NCBI RefSeq assembly: GCF_000423125.1
Contig: NZ_AUHJ01000002.1
Span: forward strand, 124,001 to 188,000
Length of the DNA: 64,000 nt
Direction: 5' to 3'
Source: Haliea salexigens DSM 19537
Lineage (GTDB): Bacteria; Pseudomonadota; Gammaproteobacteria; Pseudomonadales; Halieaceae
In this document: positions 25,350 through 64,000 of the stretch, piece after piece
How positions within the stretch are numbered: the first letter of the stretch is position 1
How the letters are laid out: every line of letters starts with the position of its first letter
The notes under the pieces: generated by a model
Database searches by the model: none
Seen by the model: the letters and a program-made list of their open reading frames with translations, nothing else
What the model was told of the DNA's origin: nothing
Position numbers and translations under genes: made by a program

Positions 25350-26473
<1,124 letters not shown>

Positions 26474-26477
<4 letters not shown>

Positions 26478-26968
26478 TCGGCCAACGCCACACTGGCGTC
26501 AGGGGCCATCGCGGCTTGCAGGTGTTCCAGGCGGCTGAGTAATGCCCGGTTGGATGCCTGAATCGCCTCTACCTGCGTGATCAGCTGTTGTTGCGTGTCT
26601 TCCAGTGCATACAGAGCGGGCAGGGTGCTCGCGGGCTCGGCGCGCGGCGCCGGCACCTCGGTGTGTATGGGGGGCTCAGTGGCCGCCACTATTGGCTGGG
26701 ACGACTCTGCTGCCGGTGGCGCTTTGGGTTCCGTGGCCAGAAAACCGTGGCCTGCCGCCGCGGTTGTCACCAGCAACGCACCGAACAGCGTCCAGGTCAT
26801 CCAGCTGCGCACGGCGGGTCGTGCAGCGCTGCCGGTTGCGGGGCGCCGCAGCGAGCGTGCGGTTTTACCTGCGGGGGCAGGGCGGCGCAGGTCGCTGCGC
26901 AGCCAGAGGTTGCCGTTTGTGGACGGGGCCTCCGGGGCATTGCGGCGCCGCGCTAGACGCTGATGCAT
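26474..26968 (-). CDS. Small membrane protein of unknown function
   Basis: A 164-residue protein I do not recognise. Residues 1-54 are basic and rich in Arg, Pro and Ala; one membrane helix lies at about 56-78 ([22 protein letters not shown]); a Pro/Ala linker follows, then a probable coiled coil at about 118-155 ([30 protein letters not shown]). The start overlaps the end of the upstream GGDEF gene by 16 bases, so the two are likely co-transcribed and perhaps coupled. Its TAG stop shares bases with the TAG stop of the convergent SPOR gene. Coding is supported by the overlap and plausible architecture, not by homology. Confidence 0.65.
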
Positions 26969-27882
26969 ACCCGCCCCCGGCCCTGTGCCTTCGCGTGGTA
27001 CAGGTGTGTGTCGGCGCGCTGCATCAATGCTTTGTCGTCATCACCGGGGAGCAGGTCGGCCACGCCGATACTCAGGCGCGGCAGCACCCCACCGGCGCGG
27101 GTGGAGAGCCCCACGGTGACGTGCTCTACCGTCTCGCGTATTTTGCGTGCTACGTCTGCTGCGCCACTGAGCCCTGTGCGTGGCAGCAGGATGGCGAACT
27201 CGTCCCCGCCGAGGCGAAACAGGAGGTCTGATTCGCGCACACAGCCGCGAAACGACTCGGCCAGGCGACACAGCACTTCGTCTCCTACGAGGTGACCAAG
27301 CTGGTCGTTGATGTCCTTGAAGTGGTCGATGTCGATAATCATCAACGACAGCGCACTGCCATGGCGCTTGGCCAGCAGGAGCTCGTGGCTCAGGCGCTCG
27401 TCCATTGCCCGGCGATTCAACAGCCCGGTGAGCCCATCGTGCAGGGCCGTAACCTGGGCGTGGGCCAGCTGTTGCGCAAGGCGCACTGCGCGCGCCAGGC
27501 CGCCAAGGGCGCGCTCCAGCAGCGTTAATTCGGCTTCGCTGAAGCGCTGGCGACGTGACAGGGTCACTGCGCCGAGTGTTTTTCCGTCGATATCCAGTTG
27601 GTAGAGTGCGCGGTGGTGGCGCTGCTCACCGAAGATGAGCTCCTGCTGATCGCCAGCGGCGGTAAACCCCAGGCTGTCGGCGAGCCCGCAGCGGCTGGCC
27701 CAGCGGTGAAAGCGCTCCAGCAAGACGTTCTGGTCTGCTTCACCGATCAGGGTATCGAACAGCCCCAGCATCTGTTCGGCGGCCTCGATGTCCGCCATCG
27801 GCGCGGCCAGAGGCGTGGCGGGAGACGTCGCCAGGTTGGCGGCGCGGTCGCTGACAAGGGTGAACGGCGATCTGTCGGTCAT
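26953..27882 (-). CDS. Diguanylate cyclase, GAF-like plus GGDEF domain
   Basis: Makes the second messenger cyclic di-GMP from two GTP. With the chosen start it has 309 residues: a GAF-like region (about 25-145) and a GGDEF domain (about 146-309) with DGLTGLLNRR, DIDHFKDIND and an intact RLGGDEF. The RESD five residues before GGDEF is an intact inhibitory I-site. ATG 27909 is in frame, but the sigma-54 promoter would place the transcript start near base 27911, leaving no room for a ribosome site, so ATG 27882 is preferred. It shares strand with flgA-flgM-flgN and has a flagellar-type promoter, suggesting a role in the motility/biofilm switch. Confidence 0.9.
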   Translation of the reverse strand: MTDRSPFTLVSDRAANLATSPATPLAAPMADIEAAEQMLGLFDTLIGEADQNVLLERFHRWASRCGLADSLGFTAAGDQQELIFGEQRHHRALYQLDIDGKTLGAVTLSRRQRFSEAELTLLERALGGLARAVRLAQQLAHAQVTALHDGLTGLLNRRAMDERLSHELLLAKRHGSALSLMIIDIDHFKDINDQLGHLVGDEVLCRLAESFRGCVRESDLLFRLGGDEFAILLPRTGLSGAADVARKIRETVEHVTVGLSTRAGGVLPRLSIGVADLLPGDDDKALMQRADTHLYHAKAQGRGRVCISV

Positions 27883-27921
27883 GGCGTCAATGCTCGAGTG
27901 AAGGTCCATCGAGCAGGTATA

Positions 27922-27937
27922 AGCAATTGCCGTGCCA
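27922..27937 (-). promoter_or_regulatory. Near-consensus sigma-54 promoter for the GGDEF gene
   Basis: Read on the minus strand, TGGCAC (27937-27932), five bases, TTGCT (27926-27922) match the -24/-12 consensus at every position. Transcription would start at about 27911. The rest of the gap to flgN holds a 6-base-pair dyad, CCGGCA/TGCCGG at 28051-28068, and nothing else seen. Confidence 0.7.
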
Positions 27938-28108
27938 ATAATTACTTATCGGATTTTGCAGGGATTTGCGTATTTTTTGCCTAATTTGGCGTGTTTTCGG
28001 CGAATAAAGTGCAGGCCGTGACATGCCATAGAGTGCCGTTTACGTGGCGACCGGCAAGAAGGTGCCGGCCAGGCAGTCAAATAATTGACGTTATTGGGGG
28101 TGTTCGGC

Positions 28109-28666
28109 TCAGGCTTTACCCAGGCTTTGACTGTCTCTGGTGCTGTCTGCCCCGCCGGTACCCGAGTACAACCGCGGATCGCCGTCTTGCTGGCGCAATA
28201 CACGCAGGGCACTGCGGGTGTGCTCTGCCAGCCGGTCTATCAGCAGGCCGTTGGCCGCGTTGAGCTCGGTGCACTGCTCGCCAAGTGCAATCAGGCGCGC
28301 CTGCAAGCCGCGATTTTCCGTACTGTTGTCGAGCTCGGCGATCTGGCGCGAGAGAGAGCCCTCAGCGCGGCGTGATGAAGAGCCCTCAGCGCGGCCTAGT
28401 GAAGAGCCTTCAGCGTGGCTTGGTAAGGAGCCCTCAGCGCGGCTTAGTGAAGAGCCCTCAGCCGACTCGGCTGCCGCAGTGGGCCGTTGCTGCTGCAGAC
28501 TGGAAAGCGCGTGGATTGCCGCATCCTTCGCCCGGGCGGCGCTTTCTATCTGTTGCGCATCGGCGCCGCGCAGCGCCTGCTGCTCGGCTTCAAGGTGGGT
28601 AAGTACGTTTTCCAGCGCCGTGATTTCGGCGCGCAGCGCCTGCGCCAGCTGTTCACCGGCGGTCAC
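28109..28666 (-). CDS. flgN: Flagellar export chaperone FlgN, with repeat insertion
   Basis: FlgN is the cytoplasmic chaperone for the hook-filament junction proteins FlgK and FlgL. The 185 residues are longer than the usual 140-155. Helical parts at 1-60 and 108-150 look like FlgN, but residues 69-107 are five tandem copies of an 8-residue unit of the type AEGSSLSR. These sit in the middle of the helical protein and would form a loop. GTG 28666 starts two bases after the flgM stop, as flgM-flgN are usually paired. The call rests mainly on position and helical pattern. Confidence 0.8.
   Translation of the reverse strand: MTAGEQLAQALRAEITALENVLTHLEAEQQALRGADAQQIESAARAKDAAIHALSSLQQQRPTAAAESAEGSSLSRAEGSLPSHAEGSSLGRAEGSSSRRAEGSLSRQIAELDNSTENRGLQARLIALGEQCTELNAANGLLIDRLAEHTRSALRVLRQQDGDPRLYSGTGGADSTRDSQSLGKA
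28346..28462 (-). repeat. Tandem 24-base repeats inside flgN
   Basis: Five imperfect in-frame copies of about 24 bases encode AEGSSLSR, AEGSLPSH, AEGSSLGR, AEGSSSRR and AEGSLSR. Copy number probably varies between strains. Confidence 0.9.
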
Positions 28667-28668
28667 GG

Positions 28669-28980
28669 TCAGGACAGGTCCTGCTCGGCCTGCAGCAGGT
28701 TGTTCACGATGCGCTCCAGGTCGACTTTGTAGCTGCCGTCGCTGATGGCGGCGCGCAGTTGTTCCACGCGTTCCATGTTGGCATCGGGCACGTCGGCCAA
28801 CTGGTTTTCCAGCTGCAGCATGTCTGTTGCCATGCGTGTGATGGTCACCGCGTCGGCTTCAACAACAGGCTTGCTGCTGCTGGCAGCACCGCTGCGTCCA
28901 GCTTGTTCCACGCCGCCCGTGCGCGCATCACCGCCGGCGCGCGACGGTTTGATGTTGGCATTGTTGTCGATTGGGTCCAT
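28669..28980 (-). CDS. flgM: Anti-sigma-28 factor FlgM
   Basis: FlgM binds and inhibits the flagellar sigma factor FliA until the hook is complete, then is exported. The 103 residues start MDPIDNNANI; the N-terminal half is disordered and rich in Gly/Ser, and the C-terminal half has the helical sigma-binding region (about 45-100, with LQLENQLADV, RVEQLRAAISDGSYKVDLERIVNNLLQAEQ) typical of the family. A sigma-28-type promoter lies upstream, giving the expected feedback loop. flgN follows after two bases. Confidence 0.93.
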   Translation of the reverse strand: MDPIDNNANIKPSRAGGDARTGGVEQAGRSGAASSSKPVVEADAVTITRMATDMLQLENQLADVPDANMERVEQLRAAISDGSYKVDLERIVNNLLQAEQDLS

Positions 28981-29083: not shown

Positions 29084-29806
29084 TCACGGGATGTGCACGC
29101 TGCCATCGGCGCTGACGATGCCTTCCACTCGCCGGCCGGACGCCAGATTGGTGACCAGCAGGCGGTCTCCCGCGGCGGCATTGGCCATGGCGCGGCCCTG
29201 CATGGTCACTTGCAGGCCCTCACTGCCGGCGATCAGTGTCACCGTCTGCCCCCGGGCGATCAACTGGGGCGGTCGCAACTGGCTGTGCCGCAGGGTGGAG
29301 CCGGCGCTTGCCGGGCGGACCAATTCGAGGCCGATCGCCTGTTGCGGGTCCAGGATCACGGCGTCGGTGGCGTTGGTAATGGTGCGTTCCACCAGGATGA
29401 GGTCGCGCTCGCTAATCACCGTGCCGCGGGGCAGGTTGTCGGTGAGTACCGGCAGCGTGGCGCGGGTGCTGACGTCCAGGCGCACATACAGGGTCCAGGC
29501 GCTGGGCTGGGCGCAGCGCACGCCCACACTTACCGGGCCCAGCACGCTGGCGTTGGGGCTACTGAACGTTTCCAGTGGCTCGCTGCAGGCCTGCAGTCGC
29601 AGGCGTGAGTCCAGCGGCCGCGCGGTGATTTCCAGGTCGCGGTAGCCCTGTGCCTGGGCGGCATCGGTGGCCGCGCGGGTGGCAGCCGCCACGACGTCTT
29701 CGAGTGGGTGCAGGGTTTCGGCACGCGCAGCGGCGTTGCCGAGCAGGGCGGGCATGGCCATGGCTGCAAGCAGAAGAAACGCAGTGGCGCGCCGGAAAAT
29801 TGACAT
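29084..29806 (-). CDS. flgA: Flagellar basal body P-ring chaperone FlgA
   Basis: A periplasmic protein that assists FlgI polymerisation into the P ring. The 240 residues have a signal peptide (about 1-29, cut near ARA-E) and an SAF-type C-terminal domain with LPRGTVISERDLILVERT, and the ending RRVEGIVSADGSVHIP. CGGAGA precedes ATG 29806. It is divergent from flgB and upstream of flgM on the same strand; a sigma-54-type promoter lies 35 bases ahead of the start. Confidence 0.95.
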   Translation of the reverse strand: MSIFRRATAFLLLAAMAMPALLGNAAARAETLHPLEDVVAAATRAATDAAQAQGYRDLEITARPLDSRLRLQACSEPLETFSSPNASVLGPVSVGVRCAQPSAWTLYVRLDVSTRATLPVLTDNLPRGTVISERDLILVERTITNATDAVILDPQQAIGLELVRPASAGSTLRHSQLRPPQLIARGQTVTLIAGSEGLQVTMQGRAMANAAAGDRLLVTNLASGRRVEGIVSADGSVHIP

Positions 29807-46048: not shown

Positions 46049-46062
46049 GTCAATAAGTTGAC
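46049..46062 (+). promoter_or_regulatory. FleQ-type box upstream of fleQ
   Basis: GTCAATAAGTTGAC differs by one base from the P. aeruginosa FleQ consensus GTCAATAAATTGAC. It overlaps TTGACA (46058-46063), a possible -35 hexamer. It lies about 70 bases before fleQ, suggesting autoregulation. Confidence 0.6.
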
Positions 46063-46130: not shown

Positions 46131-47240
46131 ATGCAGTTGTCACAGTACCCTGACAATTCGACCCCTATCGTCGGCCCCAGTGCGGCCATGCATGCGATTC
46201 GCCGGCTGGTGGCGCAGGTGGCGGGCAGTGATGCCACGGTCCTCATTCTGGGTGAATCCGGTACTGGCAAGGAAGTGGTTGCCCGCGGCATTCATAGCGC
46301 CTCGCCGCGCGCCCAGGGGCCGTTTGTGCCGGTGAACTGCGGTGCCATTCCGGCGGAGCTGCTGGAGTCCGAGTTGTTCGGGCATGAAAAGGGCGCATTC
46401 ACCGGCGCCATCAGCACCCGTCGTGGCCGTTTTGAACTGGCAGCGGGCGGCACACTGTTTCTGGATGAGATCGGCGACATGCCACTGCCCATGCAGGTGA
46501 AGCTGCTGCGGGTATTGCAGGAGCGCTGTTTTGAACGGGTGGGCAGTGCCAGTTCGCAGCCCACCGACGTGCGGGTGATTGCCGCCACCCACCAGGATCT
46601 TGAGCAGCGCGTTGAGGATGGCCGTTTCCGCGCCGACCTCTACTACCGCCTCAATGTGTTTCCGATTGACGTGCCGGCGTTGCGGGCCCGGCCGGAAGAT
46701 GTGCCGGTGCTGGTGCAGCACTTTCTGGCCCAGTTGGCGCGTGAACAGCGTGACAGCGTGGCGATTGCGGCGGATGCCATGGCTGCCCTGCAGCAGTACG
46801 CGTGGCCGGGCAATGTGCGTGAACTGAACAATCTGGTGGAGCGTTTGGCCATCCTGTTTCCCGGTGCTGAGGTGGGTTTTGCCGACCTGCCGCCGAAGTT
46901 CTGCGAAGGCTTCGACCCCACTCAACCGCCCCCGGCGCCCGCGCATATTGTCGAGGGTGAAGCGCCGGACAACGGCGAGCCTCGTGCGCCGGCCCCTGGT
47001 GTGTCCCGCGAAGTGCCGGTAGCCGCCTCACAGGCTGAAACCCTGAAACTGGGCCCGGACGGCCTGGACCTCAAGCAGCACCTTGCGGACACCGAGCGCA
47101 CCCTGCTGCTGCAGGCGCTGGAGCGTAGTGGCTGGGTGGTTGCGCGCGCGGCGCAGTTGCTCGGCTTGCAGCGCACCACCCTGGTGGAGAAGATGCGCAA
47201 GTTTGAATTGCAGCGCGATTCGGTGCCGTCAGATTCCTGA
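46131..47240 (+). CDS. fleQ: Sigma-54-dependent flagellar master regulator FleQ, without N-terminal domain
   Basis: Activates early flagellar genes with sigma-54. The product has 369 residues, against about 490 for P. aeruginosa FleQ. It starts close to the AAA+ domain: Walker A GESGTGKE (41-48), sigma-54-contact loop GAFTGA (88-93), Walker B LFLDEIGD (109-116), and a C-terminal Fis-type helix-turn-helix ([21 protein letters not shown]). The REC-like N-terminal FleQ domain is absent, with no relic in the 96 bases upstream. The arm motif written LFRS in P. aeruginosa is NSTP here. A TTG at 46095 would add 12 unrelated residues; ATG 46131 is preferred. An autoregulatory FleQ-type box precedes the gene. 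Confidence 0.92.
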
Positions 47241-47365: not shown

Positions 47366-48499
47366 ATGCAGCAGGCAGTACCCCTCGAAAAACACGACCT
47401 GGAAGCGGCTTTTCGCAGTCTTGCCGAGGTCTCACATCAACTGGATGCCTCCTACCGCGACCTCGAATCGCGGGTAGCGCGCCTCAACGAGGAGCTCGCG
47501 GCGTCGCGCTCGGCGCGGCTGGATGAGTTGGCCGAGAAGGAGCGTCTGCTGGAGCGGCTGGCATCCCTGATGGCCATGCTGCCGGGCGGTGTCTTACTGA
47601 TTGACGAGCGCCAGCAGGTGCGGGACGCCAACCCGGAAGCGGTGGCGCTGTTTGGCGAGCCGCTGCTGGGGGAGGACTGGCCCGCCGTGCAGGCGCGCAT
47701 ACGCGAGCGCGAGCCGGAGCGGCATCTCTCGCTGCACAGCCGCCATCTGGCGCAGCAGGGCGAAACGCTGGTGCTGGTGACCGACACCACCGAACTGCAC
47801 GACCTGCAAGCGCAGGTGGGCCGCGAACAGCGCCTGAGCGCGTTGGGTGAAATGGCGGCGCGGCTGGCGCACCAGATTCGCACGCCTCTGTCGTCCACCA
47901 CGCTGTATCTGGCGCAACTGCGCCGGCCGGACCTCGCGGTAGCGCAGCGGGAACGTATTTGCGACCGGCTCGCCGAGCGCTTGGTGCATATGGAAGGCTT
48001 GATAGAAAGCATGCTGGGTTTTGTGCGCGGTGCGCCCCCACGCACGGAGCTGATCTGCCTGCAGGACGTACTCGGTGACTTTCAGGCGCATGTGCAGGCG
48101 CGGCTGCAGGCCGCCGGCGCCACGCTGTCGGTGACGCCGGTGGATCGCACTCTGGCCCTGCGCGGTGATCGCGACGCACTGGCCGGCGCGCTCGCCAATC
48201 TGGTGGTGAATGCTATTGAGGCCGGCGGTGCGGCGGTCCATGTGGATGTATGGGCGGGCGCCCTGAATCGCGAGCGCATGCTGTTGCGGGTACGGGACAA
48301 TGGCCCCGGCGTGGCACAGGAGCTGCGCGAACGTATTTTCGACCCCTTCTTCACCACCCGTTCCACCGGCACCGGCCTGGGCCTGGCGGTGGTGGCGCGC
48401 ACGGTGAACGAGTTGGGGGGCGAGATCCGCCTGGGCGACAGTCCGCAGGGTGGCGCCGAATTCATTCTGGAATTTCCGGTCGCAGAAGGAGAGGGTTGA
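47366..48499 (+). CDS. fleS: Flagellar two-component sensor kinase FleS (FlrB)
   Basis: A cytoplasmic histidine kinase that phosphorylates FleR to switch on middle flagellar genes. The 377 residues have a coiled N-terminus, a PAS-like region (about 58-150, with GGVLLIDERQQVRDANPEAVALFG), an H box LAHQIRTPLSS (His at about residue 170), and an ATPase domain with N box LVVNAIEAGG and G boxes RDNGPGV and TGTGLGLAVV. No membrane helix. ATG 47366 is used; no strong ribosome site is visible and an in-frame TTG at 47318 lies inside the promoter. Confidence 0.92.
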   Translation: MQQAVPLEKHDLEAAFRSLAEVSHQLDASYRDLESRVARLNEELAASRSARLDELAEKERLLERLASLMAMLPGGVLLIDERQQVRDANPEAVALFGEPLLGEDWPAVQARIREREPERHLSLHSRHLAQQGETLVLVTDTTELHDLQAQVGREQRLSALGEMAARLAHQIRTPLSSTTLYLAQLRRPDLAVAQRERICDRLAERLVHMEGLIESMLGFVRGAPPRTELICLQDVLGDFQAHVQARLQAAGATLSVTPVDRTLALRGDRDALAGALANLVVNAIEAGGAAVHVDVWAGALNRERMLLRVRDNGPGVAQELRERIFDPFFTTRSTGTGLGLAVVARTVNELGGEIRLGDSPQGGAEFILEFPVAEGEG

Positions 48500-48501
48500 C
48501 T

Positions 48502-49872
<1,371 letters not shown>

Positions 49873-54866: not shown

Positions 54867-55327
54867 GCGCGGTAGACAAGCTCGACAAGGTCGTTACCGT
54901 GGCCCGCGCTGATCAGGCCGGCGCGGCGCGCAACCTGCAGGAACAGCAGGCCCACCACAGCCGCAATAACGACCAGCTCAACCAGTTGCAGCGCTTTGCC
55001 GACGAATACGAGCAGCAACTGCGCGACATGTCGGCCTCCGGAATGGCGGCCGCGCAGCTGCAGGACTACCGCCAGTTTCTTTCCAATCTGAACGATGCTA
55101 TTCGCCTGCAACTGAGCACGGTCGCCGAGAGCACCGAGAAGCTCCAGCAACAGCGCGACGACTGGATGCAGAAGTCCTTGCAGACCTCCACCCTGGAAGA
55201 CTTCGTCGCGCGTCGACGCATCGTCGCCAAAGACCACGCCGAACGCCTGGAACAGCGCGCTGTTGACGAGCGCTTCAACGCCGGTTTTGTGCCACCCGGG
55301 CAAGAACCGCCGGGTACTGGCACGTAA
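54863..55327 (+). CDS. fliJ: Flagellar export protein FliJ
   Basis: A coiled-coil stalk of the export apparatus, 154 residues. High Gln, Glu, Arg and Leu over the whole length (NNDQLNQLQRFADEYEQQLRDM) fit FliJ. Position after fliI supports it. A 34-base gap to fliK shows nothing else. Confidence 0.9.
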   Translation: MSAVDKLDKVVTVARADQAGAARNLQEQQAHHSRNNDQLNQLQRFADEYEQQLRDMSASGMAAAQLQDYRQFLSNLNDAIRLQLSTVAESTEKLQQQRDDWMQKSLQTSTLEDFVARRRIVAKDHAERLEQRAVDERFNAGFVPPGQEPPGTGT

Positions 55328-55361
55328 ATTGCTTTTTCTCCCCTGACACGGGAGACCCACC

Positions 55362-62125: not shown

Positions 62126-64000
62126 CAACGCCGCCGCAGTAGCGCCGGGCGCCCCGGGGTTGTCCTGGCAGACTGTACTGACTGGTGCCGGCACGCCAAT
62201 TGTGCTGATGCTGATGCTGGTGATGATCGTATTACCGCTGGCGCCGTTGGTACTCGACCTGTTGTTCACCTTCAATATCGCCCTGGCAATTATTGTGCTG
62301 ATGGCCGCGGTGTATTCCTCGCGACCGCTGGATTTCGCGTCCTTCCCCACGGTGCTGTTGATTGCGACCCTGTTGCGCTTGGGCCTGAACGTGGCATCCA
62401 CCCGGGTGGTTCTGCTTGAAGGGCACACCGGTACCGCCGCTGCGGGCCGGGTGATTGAAGCCTTCGGTGAATTCGTGGTGGGCGGCAGCTACGCGGTGGG
62501 TCTGGTGCTGTTTACCATTCTCGTGGTCATCAACTTCGTGGTGGTGACCAAGGGTGCAGGGCGGATTTCGGAAGTCACCGCGCGCTTTACCCTGGACGCC
62601 ATGCCCGGCAAGCAGATGGCGATTGACGCCGACCTGAATGCCGGCCTGATCAGTCAGGACGAGGCCCTGCGCCGTCGCGAGGAAGTGTCGCAGGAGGCCG
62701 ATTTCTACGGGGCCATGGACGGTGCCAGCAAGTTCGTGCGCGGCGACGCCATAGCCGGCATTCTCATTCTGCTGATCAACGTGCTCGGCGGTATCGCCAT
62801 TGGCATGCTGCAGCACAACCTGAGTGCCACGGATGCGGCGCAGAACTACACCCTGCTGACCATTGGCGATGGCCTGGTGGCGCAAATTCCCTCCATGCTG
62901 CTCTCCACGGCGGCGGCGATCATCGTCACCCGCGTGTCCAGCGCCCAGGACATGGGGGCCGAGGTGACACTGCAGCTCACCTCCAACCCGCGTATTCTCT
63001 TTGTGGCCGCGGGTATTATCGGCCTCATCGGTTTCGTGCCAGGCATGCCCGGCGTGGTCTTCGTACCGATCGCCGCATTGCTGGGTGTCATGGGCTATCT
63101 GCGCTGGCAGTCACAGCAGGTGGGCGCAGTGGAACCTGAGCCGGTGCGACCCGAGCGCAGCCCGGAAAATACGGAGCTTAGCTGGGATGACGTGGCCGAG
63201 GTGGATGAAATCGGCCTGGAGGTGGGCTACCGGCTCATTTCCCTGGTTGATCGCAACCAGGGTGGTGATCTGCTCAGTCGTATCAAGGGCGTGCGTAAAA
63301 AGCTGTCTCAAGAGCTGGGTTTCCTGGTGCATTCCGTGCACATACGCGACAACCTCGACCTGTCTCCCAATGCCTACCGCATCAGCCTGCACGACGTGGT
63401 GGTGGGGGAGGGCGAGGTATTTCCCGGCCGTGAGCTGGCCATCAACCCGGGGCAGACGTTTGGCGACCTCGAGGGTGTGGCCACGCGCGACCCGACATTC
63501 GGTCTGGATGCCGTGTGGATCGATCCGGGCCAGCGCGGCGACGCCCAGACCAAGGGCTATACCGTGGTCGACAGCAGCACCGTTATCGCCACCCACCTGA
63601 GCCAGCTGCTGAAGAACCACGCACGCGAGCTGATTGGCCAGGACGGCGTGCAGCAGCTGCTGGACAAACTGGCCCGCTCCTCGCCCAAGCTGGTGGAAAA
63701 CCTGGTACCGAGTGCCATGTCGCTGGGCGAGATGACGCGGGTATTGCAGAACCTGCTGGAGGAGGGGATTCCGGTGCGTGATATGCGCACAATCGCCGAA
63801 GCTTTGGCGGATCAGTCGGGCAAGGGTCAGGATTCTGACGCTTTGACCGCTAAAGTCCGCATTGCCCTGGGCCCCTCCATCTTCCAGAACATCAATGGCA
63901 CCGCGGATGAGATGTCGGTGATGGCGCTGGACTCGAAACTGGAACAGATCTTGCTGGGTTCTATTCATCAAGGTGCGGGCGGGCTTGAGCCGTCCCTGCT
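62115..64000 (+). CDS. flhA: Flagellar export gate protein FlhA, 3' end cut by window
   Basis: Large export gate protein that captures chaperone-substrate complexes. 628 codons are visible; the full protein is usually about 690-700 residues. ATG 62115 overlaps the end of flhB by 11 bases. About eight helices precede residue 340 (from PIVLMLMLVMIVLPLAPLVLDLLFTFNIALAIIVLMAAVYSSRPLDFASFPTVLLIATLLRLGLNVASTR); the cytoplasmic domain follows, with DAMPGKQMAIDADLNAGLI in the loop before it. The frame stays open to base 64000. Confidence 0.95.
   Translation, partial: MANDNAAAVAPGAPGLSWQTVLTGAGTPIVLMLMLVMIVLPLAPLVLDLLFTFNIALAIIVLMAAVYSSRPLDFASFPTVLLIATLLRLGLNVASTRVVLLEGHTGTAAAGRVIEAFGEFVVGGSYAVGLVLFTILVVINFVVVTKGAGRISEVTARFTLDAMPGKQMAIDADLNAGLISQDEALRRREEVSQEADFYGAMDGASKFVRGDAIAGILILLINVLGGIAIGMLQHNLSATDAAQNYTLLTIGDGLVAQIPSMLLSTAAAIIVTRVSSAQDMGAEVTLQLTSNPRILFVAAGIIGLIGFVPGMPGVVFVPIAALLGVMGYLRWQSQQVGAVEPEPVRPERSPENTELSWDDVAEVDEIGLEVGYRLISLVDRNQGGDLLSRIKGVRKKLSQELGFLVHSVHIRDNLDLSPNAYRISLHDVVVGEGEVFPGRELAINPGQTFGDLEGVATRDPTFGLDAVWIDPGQRGDAQTKGYTVVDSSTVIATHLSQLLKNHARELIGQDGVQQLLDKLARSSPKLVENLVPSAMSLGEMTRVLQNLLEEGIPVRDMRTIAEALADQSGKGQDSDALTAKVRIALGPSIFQNINGTADEMSVMALDSKLEQILLGSIHQGAGGLEPSL

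Follow-up and report, generated by a model that had tools for sequence, protein, structure and literature searches.

The window analysed here, a 64,000-nucleotide stretch of the Haliea salexigens DSM 19537 genome, carries a run of genes on the minus strand: flgA (29084-29806), flgM (28669-28980) and flgN (28109-28666), all three assigned by Pfam, and, after a gap of about 200 bases, a diguanylate cyclase gene (26953..27882, 309 aa) and a small single-pass membrane-protein gene (26474..26968, 164 aa). A SPOR-domain protein gene with a long Glu-Pro repeat (25350-26477, plus strand) converges on this run, an arrangement shared by the Haliea relatives examined. FlgN itself has a tandem AEGS-type repeat (about 28360-28470, minus strand), and the matching FlgN of H. 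alexandrii is about 24 codons shorter. The bacterial signal c-di-GMP tells cells to stop swimming, and many bacteria have dozens of GGDEF proteins, of which few can be assigned a purpose.

We examined the domains of the cyclase. It matched PF00990 with an E value of 2.6e-47 (161 bits, compared to a curated score of 23.8) and reads RESD-LLFRL-GGDEF, with the inhibitory I-site RESD (27226..27237, minus strand) five residues ahead of the intact catalytic motif GGDEF (27196..27210, minus strand). The closest named record is that of Haliea alexandrii, the cyclase of which is 97% identical. The Haliea protein is predicted to synthesise c-di-GMP by analogy with PA3177 of Pseudomonas aeruginosa, its probable counterpart, for which synthesis has been published. 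The N-terminal domain (residues 33-147; 27442..27786, minus strand) was characterised by AlphaFold2 (pLDDT 83.3 for the whole cyclase and 90.0 for the domain alone) and by fold matching against the PDB, where most of the best 50 matches (Z 12.6 to 10.4) were GAF domains, including KdpD (4y2f; Z 12.4, rmsd 2.2, 110 residues aligned). Since the domain has 115 residues, compared to 147-196 in several GAF targets, it is, on the predicted model, a reduced GAF domain at most, perhaps serving less as a ligand pocket than as a surface for dimer or partner contacts. The cyclase reached no Pfam GAF model above its curated score (GAF_2, 14.8 bits vs 28.6), and two PDB sequence matches of the domain (E 0.014 and 0.017) were to engineered proteins and were taken as chance.

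A profile of this N-terminal domain (A1, 11 sequences) was used to define the family. It matched 15 of 120 genomes in the Halieaceae, 113 of 293 in the order and 151 of 377 in the class, mostly in single copy (two matches in 6/113 and 2/151, respectively, and one in the rest). Of 16 named genomes, four gave matches (Haliea alexandrii, Saccharospirillum, Methylomonas and, weakly, Colwellia), and none was found in the two Marinobacterium, Halomonas, Kangiella, Guyparkeria, Duganella, Trinickia, Malikia, Comamonas, Undibacterium, Pseudothauera and Nitrosomonas genomes of the same set. For comparisons beyond Halieaceae, 60 wider members were picked by hand, about one per family and better scores first, with L199 and L200 representing Halieaceae; the arrangement RxxD-5-GG[DE]EF is present in 56 of these 60. 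Six genomes of genus g70 have two profile matches each. In one of them a stand-alone second N-terminal domain, without GGDEF, lies directly 3' of the cyclase (L213:5868-6290).

The membrane-protein gene starts at ATG 26968 and overlaps the 3' end of the cyclase gene by 16 nt. Its product has the N-terminal motif NLWLRSDL and gave no match in Pfam or NCBIfam. The initial annotation had described a GGDEF gene with intact GGDEF and I-site and an overlapping membrane gene beside flgN, which the Pfam matches and the overlap bear out. It had also called the second product a membrane coiled-coil protein of unassigned type; one hydrophobic stretch was computed, in agreement with this, while the coiled-coil character of the C-terminus is an assessment by eye. 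A sequence search found the membrane gene in 6 of 58 genomes, all of them Haliea, but the reading of the gene as a Haliea orphan was dropped because a like-placed overlapping gene was found past the cyclase stop in genus g14. In total, an overlapping homologue or like-placed gene is present in 10 of the 15 Halieaceae carriers, including one interrupted by Ns (G063). In nine of the 15, the frame with the 16-base overlap encodes N[LR]WL[RS]xxL close to the N-terminus and then a hydrophobic stretch, where the motif was read by eye, the hydrophobic stretch was computed for six, and one of the nine frames runs off its contig. A 71-aa frame with NLWLRRDL in G037 has no hydrophobic stretch and was left uncounted. 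The overlapping partner is hence conserved in two Halieaceae genera, and the fixed 16-base overlap suggests coupled translation. The membrane protein would probably anchor the cyclase at the membrane or adjust its activity there.

The flagellar neighbourhood is similarly kept within the family Halieaceae, with flgM-flgN directly preceding the cyclase in 13 of the 15 carriers (the exceptions are G003 and G084). We inspected eight loci of wider members: in six of them the cyclase lies by yciK-like and ubiG/mupP-like genes, or by rluB- and scpAB-like genes (names assigned by reading), and none of the eight has flagellar neighbours, so the flagellar place is probably Halieaceae-specific. Taken with the membrane partner, the position beside flgMN looks, from these gene orders, like a feature of the Halieaceae.

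Upstream of the cyclase lies TTGGCACGGCAATTGCT (27922..27938, minus strand), which agrees with the sigma-54 consensus in 13 of 13 scored letters. It had been named the best sigma-54 match in the window; the consensus was upheld, and the first place is shared with an equal box, CTGGCACGTAAATTGCT, before fliK (55317-55333, plus strand). Perfect TGGCACN5TTGCW sites number 14 genome-wide, and in three of them a G follows TGGCAC (the cyclase box, the site at 55318(+) in the window and C9:175175). As base frequencies predict about one TGGCACGN4TTGCW per genome by chance, the sequence of the box by itself proves little, and it is conservation that carries the proof. For the wider members, the region scanned ran from 250 bases ahead of the first possible start codon to 130 bases past it. 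A box scoring at least 11 was found in 12 of the 13 Halieaceae relatives with upstream sequence, a set that does not include L051, which starts at a contig end; the one miss is G084 (L047). Among the 60 wider members, 39 scored at least 11, compared to 5 of 411 other genes of the same loci taken as controls. At a score of at least 10 the figures are 54/60 and 30/411, by which a chance motif was ruled out; the remaining members are L201, L210, L220, L222, L229 and L247, four of which score 9. The -24/-12 element, with its proper spacing and its conservation in relatives, is on this sequence evidence a sigma-54-type promoter, and we infer that it is used in Haliea. That the cyclase is instead co-transcribed from flgAMN or expressed from an unrelated promoter, the box being accidental, would agree with the chance expectation of about one such box per genome and with the position of flgAMN and the cyclase on one strand with only the short gap between them. 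This is very improbable in view of the retention of the box, at near-constant spacing, in 12 of the 13 Halieaceae relatives and 54 of the 60 wider members, and the family keeps the box even though the eight wider loci have no flagellar neighbours.

The position of the box also bears on the start codon. The open frame has an alternative start at ATG 27909, which would give 318 aa, and this was considered as the start of the gene. It was ruled out by conservation and box spacing: relatives align from MTDRSPF, MKDSAPF or MKKVIPF, which corresponds to ATG 27882, and the box-to-ATG distance, 56 nt for ATG 27882, has a median of 55 in wider members, with 37 of 55 falling between 45 and 65 (the distance was computable for 55 of 58). 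The earlier placement of the box 27-40 bases before the cyclase gene mixes the two starts, since it lies 13-28 bases 5' of ATG 27909 or 40-55 bases 5' of ATG 27882. Transcription from about 27911 (minus strand), as estimated from the -12 element, would give a leader of about 29 bases with ATG 27882, and ATG 27909 is unlikely because such a transcript would have almost no leader.

Farther upstream, 138 bases clear of the box, lies the palindrome GTCAAATAATTGAC (28076..28089). A perfect GTCA-N6-TGAC is present 138-152 nt before the box in all six Haliea species with the cyclase gene. Published FleQ boxes, in the accessible parts of the respective papers, are GTCAAT-NN-ATTGAC (PMC10723142), from which the Haliea palindrome differs in one of 12 letters, and GTCaNTAAAtTGAC and GTCAaAAAAtTGAC (PMC8125075). 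The window holds eight perfect GTCA-N6-TGAC sites, so a single palindrome is weak evidence without conservation. We therefore give the counts for 58 wider members, those with a box score of at least 9 and enough upstream sequence (L201 and L220 were dropped): all eight letters are present in 11 of the 58 (0.1 in shuffles, 6 of 399 control windows) and seven or eight in 27 (2.4 in shuffles, 42 of 399 control windows), with the other 31 scoring below 7. The palindrome was first noticed by eye, and the enrichment test was devised afterwards, before the comparison with the published FleQ boxes. Other perfect copies in the window lie at 46049, directly before a fleQ-like gene, at 47228, preceding a weaker sigma-54-like site (47306) ahead of a fleS-like gene, and at 63826.

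Between palindrome and box, AT tracts are phased at 10-11 bp (27939..28028). In 11 Halieaceae loci the summed phasing statistic is 170.5, compared to -0.3 +/- 18.8 in shuffles, none of 300 of which reached it, and in 56 members outside Halieaceae the mean z is 0.76; this periodicity test was devised after the pattern had been seen. The phased repeats had been considered as the binding site of the activator, a reading weakened by the palindrome found farther upstream, and they are kept as a possible bend.

We then examined whether the cyclase occurs together with flagella, using FlhA as the marker. Among 377 Gammaproteobacteria, FlhA is present in 144 of the 151 cyclase carriers and in 69 of the 226 non-carriers (both 144, cyclase only 7, FlhA only 69, neither 157), an odds ratio of 46.8 with a Fisher p of 1.2e-40, ignoring relatedness. 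Two of the seven carriers with no FlhA match, G426 (L225) and G654 (L233), still have the box. In the genus Haliea, the cyclase is found in 6/6 genomes with FlhA and in 0/2 without, and FlhA is present in 13 of the 15 Halieaceae carriers, the others being G054 (88% complete) and G084. The latter, a 99% complete Halieaceae genome (L047, L289), keeps the cyclase with neither an FlhA match nor a sigma-54 box and is a naturally occurring exception consistent with the link to flagella, because box and flagellum are absent together. The cyclase is nevertheless optional for flagellates, since 40 of 53 Halieaceae and 69 of 213 class genomes with FlhA lack it. FlhD marks another flagellar hierarchy; strong FlhD matches (E < 1e-30) occur in 7 of the 377 genomes, none with the cyclase, and matches above the cut-off occur in 11, of which the weak ones in G593 and G703 do carry it. 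Exclusion of the cyclase by FlhD was dropped as resting on too few genomes.

PA3177 of P. aeruginosa is probably the Pseudomonas member of the family, with L207 as its putative equivalent. The neighbourhood of L207 agrees with what we take to be the PA3177 synteny, and we presume the P. putida counterpart to be PP_1761, a name that did not occur in the main text of two FleQ-target papers. L207 (308 aa, 34.8 kDa, GGEEF) is of similar size to PA3177, described in the accessible text as soluble, 34.4 kDa and GGEEF (PMC5702645), a comparison by size, GGEEF and presumed neighbourhood. Unlike the Haliea locus, L207 has no flagellar neighbours, and no membrane partner was seen. FleQ binding at this one probable family member is already in print: the accessible part of PMC9927353 gives at least two AIDmut-Seq sites and one ChIP-seq peak at the PA3177 (PA14_23130) promoter. 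PA3177 is included in the ChIP-seq comparison of that study, in which half of the newly found FleQ promoters failed a gel shift. RpoN is not mentioned in PMC5702645 (term count 0), and sigma-54 control of PA3177 is not stated in the partly accessible literature searched.

With moderate confidence, we propose that the Haliea gene encodes a flagellar-regulon diguanylate cyclase driven by a FleQ-type activator and sigma-54, with a membrane partner in Halieaceae. A candidate activator is encoded in the window by a FleQ-like gene (46131-47240, plus strand), the product of which has the AAA+ and HTH parts, with 67% identity to residues 142-387 of full FleQ, and lacks the N-terminal FleQ domain and linker. 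In the carrier G001, the gene directly downstream of the cyclase is a putative full-length FleQ-like gene. A different activator, such as FleR or a stress regulator, could work through the same sigma-54 promoter, in which case the cyclase would respond to late flagellar assembly or to stress instead of to the head of the flagellar hierarchy. In favour of this, fleR lies in the window (48250-49872), and a FleQ query gave 14 matches in the genome, mostly to other sigma-54 activators; in addition, PA3177 was reported to rise 26-fold under hypochlorite (accessible text of PMC5702645). We consider it unlikely, however, as the palindrome, which is enriched ahead of the genes of the family, fits the FleQ box in print, and as FleQ has been found at the PA3177 promoter.

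Under the proposed FleQ-type control, the activator would bind the palindrome and, perhaps aided by a bend in the AT-rich stretch, contact sigma-54 RNA polymerase at the box. This would switch on a short operon of the reduced-GAF GGDEF cyclase and, in Halieaceae, the overlapping single-pass protein that probably holds or tunes it at the membrane. Cyclase output, limited by the I-site, would thereby be tied to flagellum building, so that flagellated cells would have their own source of c-di-GMP. Because the flagellar-type promoter is kept in many relatives, cells that are building flagella probably make, at the same time, a source of the stop signal. In organisms whose FleQ senses c-di-GMP, such as Pseudomonas, the cyclase product would in turn damp FleQ/sigma-54 transcription. 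In Haliea, the FleQ-like activator, the membrane tethering and the feedback are all parts that we infer, and feedback on the FleQ-like protein may fail because its N-terminal domain and linker are absent.

The initial annotation had suggested a flagellar-regulon source of c-di-GMP, possibly acting as a brake on motility. The first part is supported by the box, the palindrome, the co-occurrence with FlhA, the flgMN synteny and FleQ at PA3177; the brake, against which stand the normal swimming of PA3177 mutants and the missing N-terminal part of the Haliea FleQ-like protein, is possible. PA3177 is also cited as having a role in biofilm drug tolerance. A PA3177 transposon mutant swims normally, with unchanged motility and biofilm (accessible text of PMC5702645), and deletions in three strains left swimming, swarming, twitching and biofilm unchanged (PMC10411656). 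These results, the tolerance role and a membrane partner that would favour local cyclase action are all consistent with a cyclase that belongs to the flagellar regulon, feeds a local pool used in sensing surfaces, in attachment or in placing flagella, and hardly affects swimming speed or flagellar transcription. This alternative is plausible, if somewhat short of an even chance. In E. coli, c-di-GMP rose 26.1-fold with PA3177, and overexpression of PA3177, in opposition to a purely local pool, reduced swimming by 61% (accessible text of PMC5702645); c-di-GMP also inhibits FleQ in Pseudomonas, according to the available part of PMC10723142. More broadly, FleQ and sigma-54 hierarchies might commonly include a dedicated cyclase as a widespread negative feedback, which in Halieaceae would take the form of a membrane-tethered two-gene module in flgAMN. 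We put this forward only tentatively, since about half of the wider members have no good palindrome.

Were the proposal true, building a flagellum would also build the source of the signal that shuts down flagellar transcription. One mostly single-copy GGDEF family is tied here to flagella by promoter, palindrome and co-occurrence, which makes it testable whether flagellar transcription itself sets c-di-GMP. It would also supply a regulatory context for PA3177, studied for its hypochlorite response and for biofilm drug tolerance, and the two-gene form offers a simple marine system for localising a soluble cyclase through a separate membrane partner. The literature searched, mostly without subscription papers and available in part, holds no statement on sigma-54 control or class-wide conservation of the family, and the Halieaceae two-gene form was not found in it.

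FleQ control of a cyclase is itself already known from the precedent of GcbA of Pseudomonas putida, a cyclase gene under FleQ that responds to c-di-GMP (cited in the accessible part of PMC8125075); GcbA is a different protein from the Haliea cyclase and is likened to it by FleQ control alone. In Vibrio cholerae, CdgA, CdgL and CdgO are likewise cyclases that connect the state of the flagellum with c-di-GMP, and no sigma-54 control of them was seen in the available text of PMC7098655. These proteins are predicted to contain transmembrane domains themselves, whereas in Haliea a second gene encodes the membrane part. The E. coli cyclase genes yeaJ and yhjK, likened here by description, have predicted sigma-54 promoters (PMC3162934, accessible part).
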